From positions 1 to 33,764 of the forward strand of contig JAOBWM010000043.1 in the NCBI GenBank assembly GCA_025463365.1: a DNA stretch of 33,764 nt. Direction: 5' to 3'. Positions 19,062 through 28,927 of this stretch are shown in pieces; the stretch's first letter is position 1; each line of letters begins with the position of its first letter. The notes under the pieces were generated by a model, which did not search any database, was not told the DNA's origin, and was given only the letters and a program-made list of their open reading frames with translations. Origin of the DNA: Acidimicrobiales bacterium (GTDB taxonomy: Bacteria > Actinomycetota > Acidimicrobiia > Acidimicrobiales > Iamiaceae). The position numbers were made by a program, and so were the translations under genes.

Positions 19062-19098
19062 GCGGCCCACCGCTCGCCCGGCGCACCCGGCCCGCTCA
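19059..19098. terminator. Weak bidirectional terminator between converging genes
   Basis: TGAGCGG (19059-19065, containing the SDR stop) and CCGCTCA (19092-19098, containing the MtfA-like stop) are perfect inverted copies separated by 26 GC-rich bases. It is a weaker parallel to the hairpin at 10931-10965. Confidence 0.35.
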
Positions 19099-19842
19099 GG
19101 TGATGGCCGCGGGGTCCTGGCGGTAGAAGCTGCTCAGGATGTCGTACAGGTCGGCGTTGTGGGCGCGCAGGTCCTGCGGGCGGTCGAAGAAGACCTCGGT
19201 GGCGACCGCGAAGAACTCGCCCGGATCCTGGCCGGCGTAGTCCCAGAGCAGGTCGCCGTTGTCGCCCCCGCGGATGGCTTCGAACTCCGCGGTGCAGACC
19301 TGGACCCATCGGTCGTGCTCGGCCTGGGTGTCGAGCGGTGGGGTGCCGTCGACCACGTGGTCGAGCATGTCGAGCTTGTGGGCCAGCTCGTGGAGGACGA
19401 CGTCGTGGCCGTGCTCGGGATGGCGGGCGTTGCGCCGGGCCTCGTCCCACGCGATCACCACCGGCCCGCCCGCGTGCGCCGCTTGGCCGAGCAGGGAGAG
19501 CGGTGCATCGGTCCGCAGCCCCGGGACCGGGCCGGCCCGCTCCCCCCGCCAGACCATGGTCGTGGGGTGCACGATGATCGTCTTGACCATGCGGTAGTGG
19601 TCGAACGTGAGACCGAGCACCAACAGCGCGGCCTGTAGCGAGATGGTGAGCCGGATCTCGTCGGTCAGCGCGAACCCGTTGGCCGCCTCCCAGTCCTTCT
19701 CGGTCAGGAACCGCTGGGCGAGCTCCCCGATGCGCTCCTGCTCGTCGGCCACCATCGGGTCGAACCAGGTGACCGAGGTCGCCGCCTGCTCGCGCCAGTC
19801 GATCGGCAGCCCCGCGGGGCGGCGTCGCTTCAAGAACCCCAC
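19096..19842 (-). CDS. MtfA-like zinc metallopeptidase (family M90)
   Basis: A 248-residue cytoplasmic protein of the M90/MtfA family. The zinc site HELAHKLDMLD contains HExxH, and the downstream EFFAVATEVFF supplies the usual third ligand Glu. Other family blocks are MVKTIIVHPTTM, VVIAWDEARRNARHPEHGHDVVLHE and DILSSFYRQDP at the end. In E. coli MtfA regulates sugar uptake by acting on the Mlc repressor; the role in actinobacteria is unknown. The GTG at 19842 lies 4 bases after the upstream stop, so it is probably co-transcribed with the PPOX gene. An alternative upstream start would run into that gene. Confidence 0.88.
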   Translation of the reverse strand: MGFLKRRRPAGLPIDWREQAATSVTWFDPMVADEQERIGELAQRFLTEKDWEAANGFALTDEIRLTISLQAALLVLGLTFDHYRMVKTIIVHPTTMVWRGERAGPVPGLRTDAPLSLLGQAAHAGGPVVIAWDEARRNARHPEHGHDVVLHELAHKLDMLDHVVDGTPPLDTQAEHDRWVQVCTAEFEAIRGGDNGDLLWDYAGQDPGEFFAVATEVFFDRPQDLRAHNADLYDILSSFYRQDPAAIT

Positions 19843-19846
19843 CGGG

Positions 19847-20263
19847 TCAGGCCATGCCGTACGCGTGGGTCGGGCGCACCCGCAGCACGAGGCGGCCATC
19901 GGTCACCATCGCCCGGCGGTAGTCATCCCAGTCCGCGTGCTCGCCCTGCATGGCCCGGTACAGCTCGACGAGCTGGTCGACCGTGTCGTCGTCGGGCGCG
20001 GCCGCCACCGGCGTGAGCTCGGCCTCGCCCTCGACCACCACGTAGGACCAGAAGTCGTCGGAGGTGACGTGCACGGCCACCCGCGGGTCCCGGCGAGCGT
20101 TGCGGGTCTTGGCCCGACTGTCGGTCACCGAGATGCGGATCACGCCCTCGTCGTCGACCGCGTACATGACGTTGGATGCCTGGGGCCGGCCGTCGGCCTT
20201 GAGCGTGAGCAGCACCCCCTTCTGGCGGGCCTGCACGTACTCGAGGGCGGCGTCGATCTCCAT
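19847..20263 (-). CDS. PPOX-class F420-dependent protein
   Basis: A 138-residue single split-barrel protein of the pyridoxamine-oxidase-like superfamily. It begins IDAALEYVQARQKGVLLTLKADGRPQASNVMYAVDDEGVIRISVTDSRAKTRNARRDPRVAVHV and ends MVTDGRLVLRVRPTHAYGMA. The pattern K-T-R-N-x-x-R-D-P-R-V is typical of the actinobacterial F420-binding branch (Rv1155-like), which reduces or binds F420. FMN or heme binding cannot be ruled out. The ATG at 20263 has TAGCCT seven bases upstream inside the 3' end of the DUF2889 gene, so it may have its own leaderless promoter. Confidence 0.85.
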   Translation of the reverse strand: MEIDAALEYVQARQKGVLLTLKADGRPQASNVMYAVDDEGVIRISVTDSRAKTRNARRDPRVAVHVTSDDFWSYVVVEGEAELTPVAAAPDDDTVDQLVELYRAMQGEHADWDDYRRAMVTDGRLVLRVRPTHAYGMA

Positions 20264-21967: not shown

Positions 21968-21984
21968 TCTGACGTACCATCAGA
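21968..21984. promoter_or_regulatory. Operator palindrome 6 (DUF35 / thiolase operon)
   Basis: TCTGACG-TAC-CATCAGA, one mismatch. A possible -10 box TACCAT (21975-21980) sits inside it, and the DUF35 start follows 30 bases later behind GGAGGG. This is the only operator at this operon. Confidence 0.74.
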
Positions 21985-22014
21985 AACCCCACGAGCCGTC
22001 CCTGGAGGGCCGAC

Positions 22015-22476
22015 ATGACCACCAAGACCCGGGTCCCGGCGCTGGGCGCCGAGGGATGGTTCGCCCCCGACGCGGAGCTCCCCCACCTGCTCGGGCTCCG
22101 GTGCACGACCTGCGGCACCTACGTGTTCCCCAAGGCCGGCCACGGCTGCCCCAACCCGGCCTGCCTCGGCATCGACTTCGACGAGGTCGAGCTGTCGCGC
22201 ACGGGCACGATCTGGAGCTACACGAACGCCTGCTACCAACCGCCGCCGCCGTTCGTGTTGCCCGGCGAGTCGCACGAGCCGTTCTGCATCGCTGCGGTCC
22301 ACCTGGCCGAGGAGGGCCTCGTGATCATGGGCACCGTGGTCGCCGGGGTCACCGTCGACGACCTGTCCGTGGGGCAGGAGGTCGAGCTCGTGGTCGACGT
22401 CTTGTTCAGCGACGACGACACCGACCACCTCATCTGGAAGTGGCGACCGACCAACGCCATCGGAGGGGACGCCTGA
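22015..22476 (+). CDS. Zn-ribbon OB-fold protein (DUF35)
   Basis: A 153-residue protein. An N-terminal rubredoxin-like zinc ribbon has Cys30, Cys33, Cys45 and Cys50 (LRCTTCGTYVFPK then GCPNPAC). An OB-fold follows (TGTIWSYTNACYQPP, GLVIMGTVVAGV, SVGQEVELVVD). DUF35 proteins form complexes with thiolase-like lipid-transfer proteins. In mycobacteria the DUF35 domain of ChsH2 binds the Ltp2 aldolase that removes the steroid side chain. The next gene is such a thiolase-like protein and overlaps by one base, so a complex is likely. The start has GGAGGG upstream. Confidence 0.9.
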   Translation: MTTKTRVPALGAEGWFAPDAELPHLLGLRCTTCGTYVFPKAGHGCPNPACLGIDFDEVELSRTGTIWSYTNACYQPPPPFVLPGESHEPFCIAAVHLAEEGLVIMGTVVAGVTVDDLSVGQEVELVVDVLFSDDDTDHLIWKWRPTNAIGGDA

Positions 22477-23690
22477 TGGCCACCACCGCCAACTCCGGTC
22501 ACGACGTGGCCGTCCTGGGCGTCGGCATGCACCCTTGGGGCAAGTGGGGCCGCAACTTCGTCGAGTACGGCGTGACCGCGGCGCGCGACGCGCTGCGCGA
22601 CGCCGGCATCCCCTGGACCGACGTCGACTTCGTGTCCGGTGCCGACACGATGCGAAACGGGTACCCGGGCTACGTGTCCGGGGCCACCTTCGCCCAGGCG
22701 CTCGGCTGGACCGGGGCTCGGGTCGCGTCGTCGTACGCCGCCTGCGCGTCCGGGGTCACGGCGCTCGAAGCGGCCCGGACTCGGATCCTGGCCGGGCTCT
22801 GCGACGTCGCCCTCGTCGTCGGGGCGGACACCACTCCCAAGGGCTTCCTCGCACCCAACGCCGGCGATCGGCCGACCGACCCCGACTGGCTCCGCTTCCG
22901 GCTGATCGGCGCCACCAACCCGACCTACTTCGCGCTCGCGGCGCGCCGGCGCATGGACCTCCACGGTGCCACGAGCACCGACTTCGCCAAGGTGAAGGTC
23001 AAGAACGCCACCAACGGCCTGGCCAACCCAAACGCCCGGTTCCAGAAGGCCGTCACCGTCGAGGACGTGCTGGCCAGCCCGATGGTCGCCGACCCGTTGC
23101 ACCTGCTCGAGATCTGCGCCACCTCCGACGGCGGCGCCGCGATCGTGCTCACGTCGATGGATTACGCCGCCCGCCACCCGGGGTCAGCCGGCTCGCCCGT
23201 CCGCGTCTCGGCCGTGTCCACCGTGACGCCCACGTACCCCAACACGATCATCGACCTGCCCGACATCGCCACCGATTCCACCGCGGTCGTCGCGGTCGGC
23301 GAGCGCTCCTTCAAGGCATCGATCGCCCAGGCCGCCTATGAGGAGGCCGGGATCGGGCCCGAGGATCTCTCGGTCGCCGAGGTGTACGACCTCTCCACCG
23401 CCCTGGAGCTCGACTGGTACGAGGACATCGGGCTCTGCAAGGCCGGCGAGGCCGAGCGGCTGCTGAACGACGGCGACACGCAGCTCGGCGGCCGGATCCC
23501 GGTCAACCCCAGCGGCGGCCTCGCCTGCTTCGGCGAGGCCGTCCCCGCCCAGGCGATCGCCCAGATCTGCGAGATCACCTGGCAGCTCCGTGGCCAGGCC
23601 ACGGGCCGCCAGGTCGAGCGGGCCACGGCCGGCATCACCGCGAACCAAGGTCTGTTCGGCCACGGCTCGGCCGTGCTGCTGACCCGGTAG
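22476..23690 (+). CDS. Thiolase-like lipid-transfer protein (Ltp/SCP-x type)
   Basis: A 404-residue thiolase-superfamily protein. The N-terminal half has the nucleophile-type Cys90 in SYAACASGV. In the C-terminal half the usual GHP histidine loop reads NPSGGLACFGEAVPAQ, so the catalytic His is replaced. It also lacks the final C-x-G motif, ending NQGLFGHGSAVLLTR. That makes ordinary thiolysis unlikely and favours the aldolase or lipid-transfer branch, as with Ltp2. It overlaps the DUF35 gene (TGATG) and is probably its complex partner. Operator 6 puts it in the steroid-type regulon. The substrate is unknown; a retro-aldol or retro-Claisen-like C-C cleavage is an inference. Confidence 0.85.
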   Translation: MATTANSGHDVAVLGVGMHPWGKWGRNFVEYGVTAARDALRDAGIPWTDVDFVSGADTMRNGYPGYVSGATFAQALGWTGARVASSYAACASGVTALEAARTRILAGLCDVALVVGADTTPKGFLAPNAGDRPTDPDWLRFRLIGATNPTYFALAARRRMDLHGATSTDFAKVKVKNATNGLANPNARFQKAVTVEDVLASPMVADPLHLLEICATSDGGAAIVLTSMDYAARHPGSAGSPVRVSAVSTVTPTYPNTIIDLPDIATDSTAVVAVGERSFKASIAQAAYEEAGIGPEDLSVAEVYDLSTALELDWYEDIGLCKAGEAERLLNDGDTQLGGRIPVNPSGGLACFGEAVPAQAIAQICEITWQLRGQATGRQVERATAGITANQGLFGHGSAVLLTR

Positions 23691-23713
23691 GCCGATCCCT
23701 CCTCGTACTCCCG

Positions 23714-23830
23714 CTAGTACTCCCGCTCGGGCACCTCGCGTTCGGGGTGATCGAGCTGGATGTGGAAGTTCAACTCGGCCAGGTTCACGAACCGCAGCTC
23801 GCAGAACGGGCACTGGTGGACGTCGCTCAT
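23714..23830 (-). CDS. 38-residue C2H2 zinc-finger microprotein
   Basis: A short frame ATG to TAG of 38 codons. It encodes Cys7-x2-Cys10-x12-His23-x4-His28, the spacing of a classical C2H2 zinc finger, with hydrophobic residues between (Phe14, Leu20) at near-usual places: CPFCELRFVNLAELNFHIQ. The tail is acidic (HPEREVPERE). It starts 18 bases after the large membrane protein gene stop on the same strand, so it may be translated by coupling; no ribosome site is clear. A free-standing bacterial finger of this type may bind DNA, RNA or a protein. Function is unknown. Confidence 0.62.
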   Translation of the reverse strand: MSDVHQCPFCELRFVNLAELNFHIQLDHPEREVPEREY

Positions 23831-23848
23831 GGTTCGAGTGTCGCGCCA

Positions 23849-26332
23849 TCAGGTGAACGAGCGGTAGTGGTGGCGGACGCCCGTGAGATCCCGGCGCCGT
23901 TGCTCGAACGTGGCACCGATCGCCAGGAGCACGAGGCCGGTGGCCCCGAGGGTGGCCCAGTTGGGCATGGTGCCCACCACCGGGGCCAGTTGGCGCAGCC
24001 CGATGACCGTCACGACCGTGGCTCCGACGTCGACGGGTGCCCGCTTGGCTGCGAGGGCGCCGGTGGCGAGCACGGCGGCTCCGACCGCGAGGAGCAGGAG
24101 GGGGCGGACCAGGCCGGGGTCGCCGAGGGAGATCACGAGGGAGGGGATGATCGCGGTCACCAGGGCCGGGCCCATCCAGATCCACGACGGCAGCTCCGTA
24201 CCGGTGGACCGGGCCTTCTTGGCCGAAGCCAGCCCGGCGGCCAGCAGGATCGCGGCCAGCGGGACGACGTAGGGCTCAGGCGCCTGCACCCCCGCCTGAC
24301 CCAACTCGAGCCAGGCCAGGACCATCGCCTGGCCGGCTGCGGGCCAGACCAGCAAGCCTCGACCGGGTCGCGCCGCATGCAGCCCGGCGGCGAGGACACC
24401 GACGGACAGCACGATCCGCAGGGCGCCCGGGTCGGCCAGGGCACACACCGCGAACAGGGCGACACCGTGGATGGTCCACGCGGTGGTCTCGAGGGCCCGC
24501 ACGATCATCCCGTCGACCCCGCTGGGATCGCCGTCGGGGCCGGCGAGCAGCACGCCCGCCAGTCCCAGGACCGACGCGGCCGCCGTTGCCGCAGCCCACG
24601 CCGGAGCGGCAGCGACGCCCGTGGCCGCGAAGCCGAGGCCGGCCGCGGCGCCGGCGGCCGCGACCACGAGGCCGCTCGCCGTCACGGCGATCACCTCGGA
24701 CCCGACCGAGCGCGCAGCGACGGCGAGGAGCAGCGCCAGGGCGGCGGCGACGCCGATGGCGACGAGGGTCGACGATGCCGAGGCAGACGCCCAAGCGCCG
24801 GCGATGGCGAGGAGGACCCCCGCCGTGGCCGCTCCCGCCTCCAGCCGGTGCCGTCCGATGGGACCGGCGAGCGGCCCGCCGTGGATCGCCGCAGCCGGGG
24901 CCGACGGGAGGATGGCCGCCAGCACGGCCAGCGCCGCCGCACCCAGCGTCACCGCCACCATCCCGCCCACCGAGAGCGGGAGCAGGATCGGAGCGGTCAC
25001 GACCGCGGCGATGGAGACGGCGACCGCACCGGCGACGGAGACGGTGCGCTTGGCCGCCAGGCGGGCCGCACCGACCAGCACCGTGGCCGTGGCCAGCTCG
25101 ATCAGCACGGCGACGGTATCGAAGGACACCGGGCGGGCGCCGACGTCGGCGGCGCGGACCGTGAGGGAGCCGGCCCAGGGGTGCGACAGGACGTCGAAGG
25201 CCCACGACGTCGCTGTCATCACCGCGATGCCCAACGCCGAGACCGAGGCGAGCGTGGCGACTCCGGCGATGACCGAGGGCGGGCCACCCCAGCGCACCGG
25301 GCTGCGGAGGGCGACGACGAGCCCGACCGCGGCGAGCAGACCCGTCCAGGCCACGGCCTGCCCGGGCTCGACCACCGTGGCGAGCCCGATGCCGGTCGCG
25401 AGGAGCGACAACATGCTGGCGACCGCCACCGCGACCGATCGGATCTCGTCCGTCTCGGCGCGGAGCCAGGAGGCCAGGGCCGCGATCGCTGCGGCACCGA
25501 AGAGCACGACGACGTGCCCGCGAGTCGCTGCCGTGTCGCCCAAGGCGCACTCGAGCAGGGCTCCGATCACGAGGGTCGACCACATGCACGTGGCGAGGGC
25601 GGCCGCCGACTGGCGGGCCAACCGCACGCCGACCGGCCGAGCCGCGAGCACGAGGACGATCGCGACCTGCACGAGGACCAGCCCCCGCTGGGCCGCACCC
25701 GAAAGGCCCGACTCGGAGACCAACTCGAGCAGCGGCAGCTGGCCCAAGATCCCGGCGGCGACACGGGTCGAGCGGATGCCGACGCCACGACCGAGGGCGA
25801 ACGCCCCGGCGGCCACGCCGGCCAGTGCCCCGGCCCAGTACGGCTCGTTGCCGATGTCGGGAAGGAAGCCGATGTGCAAGGCGTGGGCATCGGCGATGGC
25901 GAGCATGACGGTGACGAGCCCGAGGGCCTCGGCCGTCGCCGGCAGGCGCTTGCGCCCACACGCCCACGTGGCCACGCCGGCCACCGCGGTGAGGGCGACG
26001 AGGAGGAGGCCTTGGAACGTGGCGCCGAGCCGGCTCCAGTTCACGGCGGTGAAGACGATCGCGGCGACGGCGACGAGCGCCGTGCCCAGCCCGAGCAGCA
26101 GGTTCTGCACGCTGATGTCGGGCACTGTGCGCCGCGGCGCAGGCTCCCGAGGGGGCGGAGGCGGGGGCGACCCAGGCGGCGGGGGCGGAGGCGACCACGA
26201 CTGGGGCGGAGGCGGGGGCGACCACGACGGGGGCGTCTGCGGGTCCGGTGGCGGCAGGGCCGACCCCGGGGTCGCGGTAGGCGGGCCCCAGCCGGGGAGC
26301 GGGGCATGGTGGGGTTCGATCGGAGCGTTCAC
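23849..26332 (-). CDS. Large polytopic membrane protein (SCO7613 C-terminal-domain type)
   Basis: An 827-residue protein with about 70 proline-rich cytoplasmic residues (blocks of WSPPPPP and PPPPP), then a long run of some twenty or more hydrophobic helices from about residue 75 to 800. The end is GATFEQRRRDLTGVRHHYRSF, the usual tail of actinobacterial SCO7613-type membrane proteins, whose function is unknown. Small residues (Ala, Gly, Val, Leu) dominate the helices, and few charged residues lie within them. The GTG at 26332 is used since no in-frame earlier start is seen. The downstream microprotein may be in the same transcript. Confidence 0.82.
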   Translation of the reverse strand: MNAPIEPHHAPLPGWGPPTATPGSALPPPDPQTPPSWSPPPPPQSWSPPPPPPGSPPPPPPREPAPRRTVPDISVQNLLLGLGTALVAVAAIVFTAVNWSRLGATFQGLLLVALTAVAGVATWACGRKRLPATAEALGLVTVMLAIADAHALHIGFLPDIGNEPYWAGALAGVAAGAFALGRGVGIRSTRVAAGILGQLPLLELVSESGLSGAAQRGLVLVQVAIVLVLAARPVGVRLARQSAAALATCMWSTLVIGALLECALGDTAATRGHVVVLFGAAAIAALASWLRAETDEIRSVAVAVASMLSLLATGIGLATVVEPGQAVAWTGLLAAVGLVVALRSPVRWGGPPSVIAGVATLASVSALGIAVMTATSWAFDVLSHPWAGSLTVRAADVGARPVSFDTVAVLIELATATVLVGAARLAAKRTVSVAGAVAVSIAAVVTAPILLPLSVGGMVAVTLGAAALAVLAAILPSAPAAAIHGGPLAGPIGRHRLEAGAATAGVLLAIAGAWASASASSTLVAIGVAAALALLLAVAARSVGSEVIAVTASGLVVAAAGAAAGLGFAATGVAAAPAWAAATAAASVLGLAGVLLAGPDGDPSGVDGMIVRALETTAWTIHGVALFAVCALADPGALRIVLSVGVLAAGLHAARPGRGLLVWPAAGQAMVLAWLELGQAGVQAPEPYVVPLAAILLAAGLASAKKARSTGTELPSWIWMGPALVTAIIPSLVISLGDPGLVRPLLLLAVGAAVLATGALAAKRAPVDVGATVVTVIGLRQLAPVVGTMPNWATLGATGLVLLAIGATFEQRRRDLTGVRHHYRSFT
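26151..26235. repeat. G-rich tandem repeat encoding the proline-rich N-terminus
   Basis: Imperfect copies of GGGGGCGGAGGCG and GGGGGCGACCACGAC fill this stretch, with many runs of three to five G on the plus strand. On the coding (minus) strand they give the PPPPP and WSPPPP blocks of the membrane protein. The G-runs could form a quadruplex on the template strand of that gene. Confidence 0.6.
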
Positions 26333-26415: not shown

Positions 26416-26877
26416 TCAGGCCAGGTAGCGGCTGAGGCTCTCCACCACGCACACCGGTTTCTCGCCGCCCTCGCGCTCGACGGTGATGCGCATGGTGGTG
26501 TCGATCCCGCCGGTCACGTCGTCGACCGCGATCAGCTCGACGCCACCGCGCAGCCGCGACCCCACGGGCACCGGGGCGGGGAATCGGATCTTGCCCGTGC
26601 CCCGGTTCACCCCCAGCGACACGCCCTGGACCTCCACCACCTGGGGCAGGAACCGGTTGGTCAGCGCCAGGGTGAGGAAGCCGTGGGCGATCGGGCCGCC
26701 GAACGGGGACTCGGCCGTCGCCCGCTCCACGTCGACGTGGATCCACTGGTGGTCGCCCGTGGCATCCGCGAACGTGTTGACCTGCTCCTGGGTGACGGTG
26801 GTCCACTCGCTCCACCCGAGGTGGGCCCCGACCGCGGCCCGCACCTCGTCGATCCCCTCGAACGTCGTCACCGCCAT
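26416..26877 (-). CDS. MaoC-type (R)-enoyl-CoA hydratase, HtdZ-like
   Basis: A 153-residue single hot-dog domain. The hydratase motif FADATGDHQWIHVDVERA carries the catalytic Asp and His. Next come PIAHGFLTLAL and GVNRGTGKIRFPAPVPVGSRLR. It closely resembles mycobacterial HtdZ (Rv0130), which hydrates enoyl-CoA to the (R)-3-hydroxyacyl form. It is the third gene after fadE30 and ipdF on the same strand, with a strong hairpin in the 77-base gap. The ATG at 26877 has GGAG 7-8 bases upstream. It may hydrate a C/D-ring or general acyl-CoA substrate; which is not decided by sequence. Confidence 0.88.
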   Translation of the reverse strand: MAVTTFEGIDEVRAAVGAHLGWSEWTTVTQEQVNTFADATGDHQWIHVDVERATAESPFGGPIAHGFLTLALTNRFLPQVVEVQGVSLGVNRGTGKIRFPAPVPVGSRLRGGVELIAVDDVTGGIDTTMRITVEREGGEKPVCVVESLSRYLA

Positions 26878-26893
26878 CGCATCATCTCCGTTC

Positions 26894-26934
26894 TGGCGTA
26901 GCTCGTGGTCGCCATTCGACCGGGAGCTACGCCA
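26894..26934 (-). other. Strong intercistronic hairpin between ipdF and maoC
   Basis: TGGCGTAGCTC (26894-26904) pairs perfectly with GAGCTACGCCA (26924-26934). Within the loop GGTCG (26907-26911) pairs with CGACC (26917-26921) around CCATT. One wobble and one mismatch join them into an 18-step stem. It ends 16 bases before the maoC ATG, just upstream of its ribosome site, and starts about 20 bases after the ipdF stop. It may be a partial terminator, an RNA-processing site or a mobile-repeat trace. Confidence 0.65.
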
Positions 26935-26954
26935 TTTGGTGGGTTGGGGGTCGA

Positions 26955-27730
26955 TCAGGCTCGTTGGGAGCTGGCCGAGATGATCTCGCCGGTGAGGTAG
27001 CTCGAGTAGTCGCTGGCGAGGAACACCATCACGTTGGCGATCTCCCAGGGCTCGGCGTAGCGCCCGAACGCCTCGCGCTCGGTGAGCTCGGCGAGGAGCT
27101 CGTCGGTGGTGACCTTGGCGAGGAAGGGGTGCATCGCCAGGCTCGGGGCCACGGCGTTGACGCGGATGCCGTGGGGTGCGGCCTCGATGGCGGCGCAGCG
27201 GGTGAGGGCCATCACGCCGGCCTTGGCCGCCGCGTAGTGGGCCTGTTCCGCCTGGGCCCGCCAGCCCAGGACGGACGCGTTGTTCACGATCACGCCGCTC
27301 CCCCGCTCGGTCATGTGGCGGAGCACGGCACGGGTGCAGCGGAACGTGCCGGTGAGGGTGACGTCGAGGACGGTCGACCACTGCTCGTCGGTCATGTCGA
27401 CGATGGCAGCCGAGCCGCCGAGGCCCGCGTTGTTGATCATGACGTCGATGCGACCGAGGCGTGCGACGGCCGCGTCGACGAGGCCCTGGACATCGTCCTC
27501 GACGGTCACGTTGCAGACCTGGGTGTCCGGACGCGTGCCGGTCTCGTCGGCCAGCCGATCCGCGGTCTCGCCGAGCCGGCGCTCGTGGAAGTCGGAGATG
27601 AGGACGGTCGCGCCCTCCTCGATGGCCTTGCGCGCCACCGCCGACCCGATGCCCGTGCCGGCGGCCGCGGTGACCACCACGGTCTTGCCGCTCAGGAGGC
27701 CGTGGCCTCCGACGTACGTGGGTGGCTCGG

Positions 27731-27734
<4 letters not shown>
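26955..27734 (-). CDS. ipdF: Steroid-type ketoreductase IpdF
   Basis: A 259-residue SDR clearly matching IpdF (Rv3559c), which reduces the ring ketone of HIP-CoA. Blocks shared with it: GLLSGKTVVVTAAAGTGIGSAVARKAIEEGATVLISDFHERRLGET, VIVNNASVLGWRAQAEQAHYAAAKAGVMALTRC, EAFGRYAEPWE, and the end FLASDYSSYLTGEIISASSQRA. Catalytic residues are Ser154, Tyr167 and Lys171. The cofactor loop is the unusual TAAAGTGIG. The GTG start shares the GTGA overlap with the fadE30 stop, so the pair is co-translated and under operator 7. Confidence 0.94.

Positions 27735-28927
<1,193 letters not shown>

Follow-up and report, generated by a model that had tools for sequence, protein, structure and literature searches.

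The window analyzed here, 33,764 nucleotides (nt) long, is contig JAOBWM010000043.1 of an Acidimicrobiales bacterium of the family Iamiaceae (NCBI GenBank assembly GCA_025463365.1). It contains a frame for a 38-residue microprotein consisting of a single classical C2H2 zinc finger and a tail, which almost certainly represents an existing gene under selection. We favor, with a probability of roughly 0.55, a reading in which the product is a trans-acting, protein-binding finger that is autonomously expressed from a leaderless mRNA. The fold itself is familiar; what would be new is a conserved bacterial microprotein that is acidic, apparently leaderless and built as a single classical finger, and no published description of the family was found in a partial coverage of the literature. 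Little work has been devoted to single-domain zinc-finger micro-proteins (PMC6562870). The gene provides a compact and testable bacterial example of a eukaryote-like finger, apparently expressed without a leader.

Sequence, fold and conservation of the microprotein

The open reading frame (ORF) starts with the ATG at position 23830, stops with the TAG at 23716-23714 and encodes MSDVHQCPFCELRFVNLAELNFHIQLDHPEREVPEREY. The zinc ligands C7, C10, H23 and H28 of the translated frame reproduce exactly the Cys-x2-Cys-x12-His-x4-His arrangement described in an initial annotation, which had not stated the strand; the frame is on the minus strand. The acidic tail of that annotation is acidic on balance, but the conserved stretch of about 10 residues also carries an invariant P-x-R-x-V-P-x-R. 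The protein contains no lysine and has a net charge of about -4 to -5. Neither its own sequence nor Pfam zf-C2H2_4 has a match anywhere else in the 4.3-Mb assembly. It fits no NCBIfam model and does not reach the curated Pfam cut-offs (zf-C2H2, 16.9 versus 25.2 bits; zf-C2H2_4, 22.1 versus 27), which are scoring thresholds for a 23-24-residue model and not structural features.

The AlphaFold2 model is a beta-beta-alpha finger with two short strands followed by a helix (residues 17-27), a mean predicted local distance difference test (pLDDT) score of 78.7 and a less certain tail. The best Foldseek matches are C2H2 fingers, at a weak E-value of 0.1, and none reaches 0.001. The microprotein probably binds zinc. 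In its C-x2-C-x3-F-x5-L-x2-H-x4-H pattern and predicted fold it resembles the classical C2H2 finger (zf-C2H2, PF00096; zf-C2H2_4, PF13894), from which it differs in being a free-standing, bacterial, acidic, single finger that scores below the Pfam cut-offs. The Ros/MucR regulators also have bacterial C2H2-type ligands, but with a 9-residue Cys-His spacer, a domain of about 58 residues and basic flanks (PMC9779718), compared with a 12-residue spacer, 38 residues and a net negative charge here. The one-domain zinc-finger micro-proteins of Haloferax are likewise short (<70 residues), with one finger and a mechanism that is mostly not known (PMC6562870); they come from archaea and are of the C(P)XCG type, whereas the microprotein is of the Cys2-His2 type.

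Orthologues of 37-38 residues are found in 14 of the 24 family genomes, counting the window's own, and the carriers include Aquihabitans sp. G128 and Acidimicrobiales metagenome-assembled genomes. The start and stop positions are conserved, and the classical spacing, C-x2-C-x3-F-x5-L-x2-H-x(3-5)-H, is present in all 14. Nineteen alignment columns are invariant (H5, C7, P8, F9, C10, E11, L12, F14, E19, L20, H23, I24, D27, H28, P29, R31, V33, P34 and R36), covering the four ligands, E11, E19, D27 and the tail motif. The initial annotation had proposed to look in relatives for the Cys/His residues and the frame, both of which are kept, and for a bias toward synonymous change. The ratio of nonsynonymous to synonymous differences (pN/pS) is 0.13-0.25 against the four nearest relatives (L002-L005) and 0.48 over all orthologue pairs, with the third codon position being the most variable; the gene is thus under purifying selection. 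The conservation of frame, ligands and tail at a nearly fixed length strongly supports a free-standing single-finger microprotein. A partial match in genome G004 (L049) was rejected, as its frame lacks the cysteines. As a separate observation, the final codons of the gene (CGGGAGTAC) recur as a direct copy right after the stop codon (window positions 23700-23725).

Start region and predicted leaderless expression

The upstream regions of the orthologues are dissimilar, save for a hexamer (G/C)AnnnT that ends six bases before the start codon. Numbered from the A of the start codon (+1), its A and T fall at -11 and -7, the two key positions of a -10 element. The pair is found in exact register in 11 of the 14 orthologues, every other register stays below 4, 2000 shuffles give 5 at best, and only 1.4% of the ATG/GTG triplets in the window have the pair; these figures are not independent probabilities, as the upstream sequences are related by descent. 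The element is off by one base in L002 and L005, and it is retained in L044 (=L011) and L047 (=L014) despite different neighbors. Because the two bases are placed as in a -10 element with the A of the ATG at +1, the mRNA should be leaderless, and the gene appears to have its own promoter, with transcription starting at the ATG. A Shine-Dalgarno site is generally absent ahead of the orthologues; most of the wider relatives described below have one instead. In L010 (=L045), the GTG start of the microprotein overlaps the TGA stop of the upstream MaoC gene (GTGA), which is consistent with translational coupling to MaoC in that genome.

Short ORFs without a leader are frequent in mycobacteria (PMC4633059). 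The gene resembles those of the mycobacterial leaderless small proteins in having a start codon at the expected 5' end of the transcript, no Shine-Dalgarno site and a short ORF (PMC4633059); mycobacteria belong to another class of Actinomycetota, and leaderless expression is deduced here from the sequence.

Related fingers and their fusions

Order- and phylum-wide searches recovered related N-terminal fingers from across the phylum, either free-standing (about 37-67 residues), ahead of a Usp-like domain or ahead of baeRF3. Five genomes from the same order encode an N-terminal C2H2 finger fused to a baeRF3/Balon-type hibernation factor (L017, L076, L077, L078 and L079; Pfam was run on L017 and L079, and L076-L078 were assigned by similar sequence). 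L071, in which clear Usp domains follow the finger, provides the sole Pfam confirmation of Usp among the Usp-like fusions. A finger of the same signature also precedes a Rossmann-like domain in L026, L027, L030, L056, L057, L064, L067, L069, L070 and L072; L030, L056, L057 and L070 were run against Pfam and were not recognized. Every fused protein carries the finger at its very N-terminus, with the spacing and a Glu at helix position 3 retained. Computationally, the microprotein is kin by signature to the N-terminal fingers of the Usp and baeRF3 proteins. A phage origin was rejected, the matches in PHROGs and phages being only weak, and plasmid carriage was rejected on a single match, an 81-residue 'hypothetical protein' of Pseudonocardia.

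The finger-baeRF3 fusions mirror the arrangement of Vms1/ANKZF1, in which an N-terminal C2H2 finger precedes an eRF1-type domain (PMC6514570). The eukaryotic finger is Rei1-like, and the microprotein itself has no eRF1-type domain (PF18845), which places it outside the baeRF3/Balon family; the resemblance is a lead and not a claim of homology. A bacterial C2H2-baeRF fusion is not mentioned in the passages retrieved from the Vms1/ANKZF1 (PMC6514570) and Balon (PMC10901736) papers. The microprotein could be an actinobacterial N-terminal targeting finger in free-standing form, with one docking surface, used in trans by the microprotein and in cis by the fusions, bringing stress factors to a common target as a bacterial parallel to the Vms1/ANKZF1 finger; we regard this extension as rather doubtful. 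Through the wider relatives, this type of finger is tied to proteins of stress and ribosome hibernation, so the docking target can be tested directly, and from the sequences we infer a possible stress-related role for the microprotein.

Mode of action and genomic surroundings

All 14 orthologues have Glu at helix position 3, and helix positions -1, 2 and 6 vary. Protein binding is favored over DNA binding because the finger is acidic and lysine-free, with a fixed Glu at helix position 3 and drift at the other DNA-contacting positions. The fixed E11, E19 and D27, together with this drift and the charge, point to a surface for protein binding of which the tail is part, and argue against sequence-specific reading of DNA. 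In the proposed mechanism, a leaderless mRNA with the A of the ATG as its first base would yield the microprotein from its own promoter, and the product would adopt a zinc-bound beta-beta-alpha finger followed by the conserved 10-residue tail. The acidic face (E11, E19 and D27) and the P-x-R-x-V-P-x-R tail may then serve to bind and modulate a partner protein.

Several results weigh against this reading. At larger distances, where pS stops growing with distance, pN/pS is about 0.5-1.1. A full-length match to the finger is missing from 10 of the 24 family genomes (several of these assemblies are incomplete), and in nine of these ten no recognizable finger lies beside the thiolase (74-90% identity). 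A degenerate finger at that site was considered and rejected, none being recognizable in the nine genomes. The microprotein is dispensable, since these nine genomes keep the thiolase without an adjoining finger. No conserved gene accounts for its function. The constancy of the 57 tabulated fingers, all with the same spacing and with Glu (56) or Asp (one) at helix position 3, is partly a matter of ascertainment, as the search profile contained the invariant Glu. Finally, baeRF3 (PF18845) has no match at an E-value of 1e-8 in the window's own genome, and the baeRF3 fusions therefore do not name a partner here.

The initial annotation suggested a regulator, a role that in the DNA-binding sense is disfavored by the acidity and by the drift at base-contacting positions. 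A DNA- or RNA-binding mini-regulator, whose single finger would read a short site and perhaps control the surrounding acyl-CoA degradation genes, is accordingly viewed as unlikely. The nearest solved structures by sequence and fold are indeed DNA-binding C2H2 fingers, such as those of CTCF, ZNF524 and Tramtrack, and a tblastn synteny table places most orthologues between same-strand acyl-CoA dehydrogenase (ACAD), short-chain dehydrogenase (SDR) and MaoC genes and a convergent thiolase-DUF35 pair. However, L044 and L047 are away from the degradation genes, nine genomes have the thiolase with no finger adjoining it, and the microprotein lacks a basic flank; in the Ros finger, flanking basic residues stabilize DNA binding (PMC9779718).

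It is quite improbable that the microprotein is a zinc-responsive element, that is, an inexpensive peptide that buffers or senses zinc and folds only in its presence. Its ligands are invariant and a leaderless start would permit production without a leader, but the non-ligand residues E11, E19, D27, V33, P34 and R36 are equally invariant, and no zinc-uptake or efflux gene is present among the neighboring genes examined.

The initial annotation correctly placed the gene on the same strand as, and right after, a large membrane protein gene, the stop codon of which is 18 nt upstream. Its suggestion that the two proteins may be partners is not supported. The membrane protein has a DUF2157 match slightly under the Pfam cut-off (E-value 6e-7), and DUF2157 matches lie upstream of the finger in four relatives, close to it in L039 and L040 and at a greater distance in L038 and L042, which speaks for a partner or accessory subunit of this protein. 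In L041, however, the membrane gene ends about 2.1 kilobases from the finger. DUF2157 was not found in the finger flanks of L043, L045, L046 and L048; the gene directly upstream there is MaoC, and the finger is still conserved. None of the neighbors tested in the synteny table, DUF2157 included, was found near the finger in L044 or L047. The DUF2157 gene is not a constant neighbor and is therefore probably not the partner, a role that we consider very doubtful. Its inconstancy, and the -10 element retained in L044 and L047, mark the finger as an independent unit, not tied to the membrane protein, with its own predicted promoter.

A leaderless regulatory short ORF acting in cis, in the style of a cysteine attenuator, would fit the frequency of leaderless short ORFs in mycobacteria (PMC4633059), but it is highly improbable: the downstream gene is convergent in most relatives, which leaves nothing to attenuate, and conservation at the amino-acid level reaches the last residues. 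A chance ORF or an artefact of high guanine-plus-cytosine (G+C) content, conceivable because long spurious ORFs are plentiful at 72% G+C, is refuted by the conservation, namely by the orthologues, selection, fixed length, ligands and promoter distance.

Table 1. Coordinates of the microprotein gene and adjacent features in the window.
Feature	Positions	Strand	Basis
Microprotein, 38 residues, single C2H2 zinc finger	23714..23830	minus	ORF, orthologue alignment, predicted beta-beta-alpha finger
Predicted leaderless promoter: -10-like hexamer GACACT, with A at -11 and T at -7, that ends 6 nt ahead of the start codon	23837..23842	minus	
Gap of 18 nt between membrane-gene stop and microprotein start; no Shine-Dalgarno site	23831..23848	minus	
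DUF2157-like membrane protein ORF, 827 residues, upstream of the microprotein	23849..26332	minus	Pfam
SCP2-type thiolase-like gene, convergent, syntenic in most relatives	22464..23690	plus	Pfam and synteny
MaoC-like hydratase, SDR and ACAD genes, upstream, syntenic	26416..28927	minus	

The microprotein is flanked by an acyl-CoA degradation locus, with the thiolase and a DUF35-like gene on the plus strand (21973-23690) and the ACAD, SDR and MaoC genes on the minus strand (26416-28927). The partner gene of the thiolase is one that we take to be DUF35 from our own reading rather than from a Pfam match, and the Pfam match for SDR comes from the SDR orthologue in L046. The stop codons of the thiolase-like gene and the microprotein are 23 nt apart. 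Elsewhere in the window, a Peptidase M90 gene is found on the minus strand (19096-19899, E-value 1e-63).
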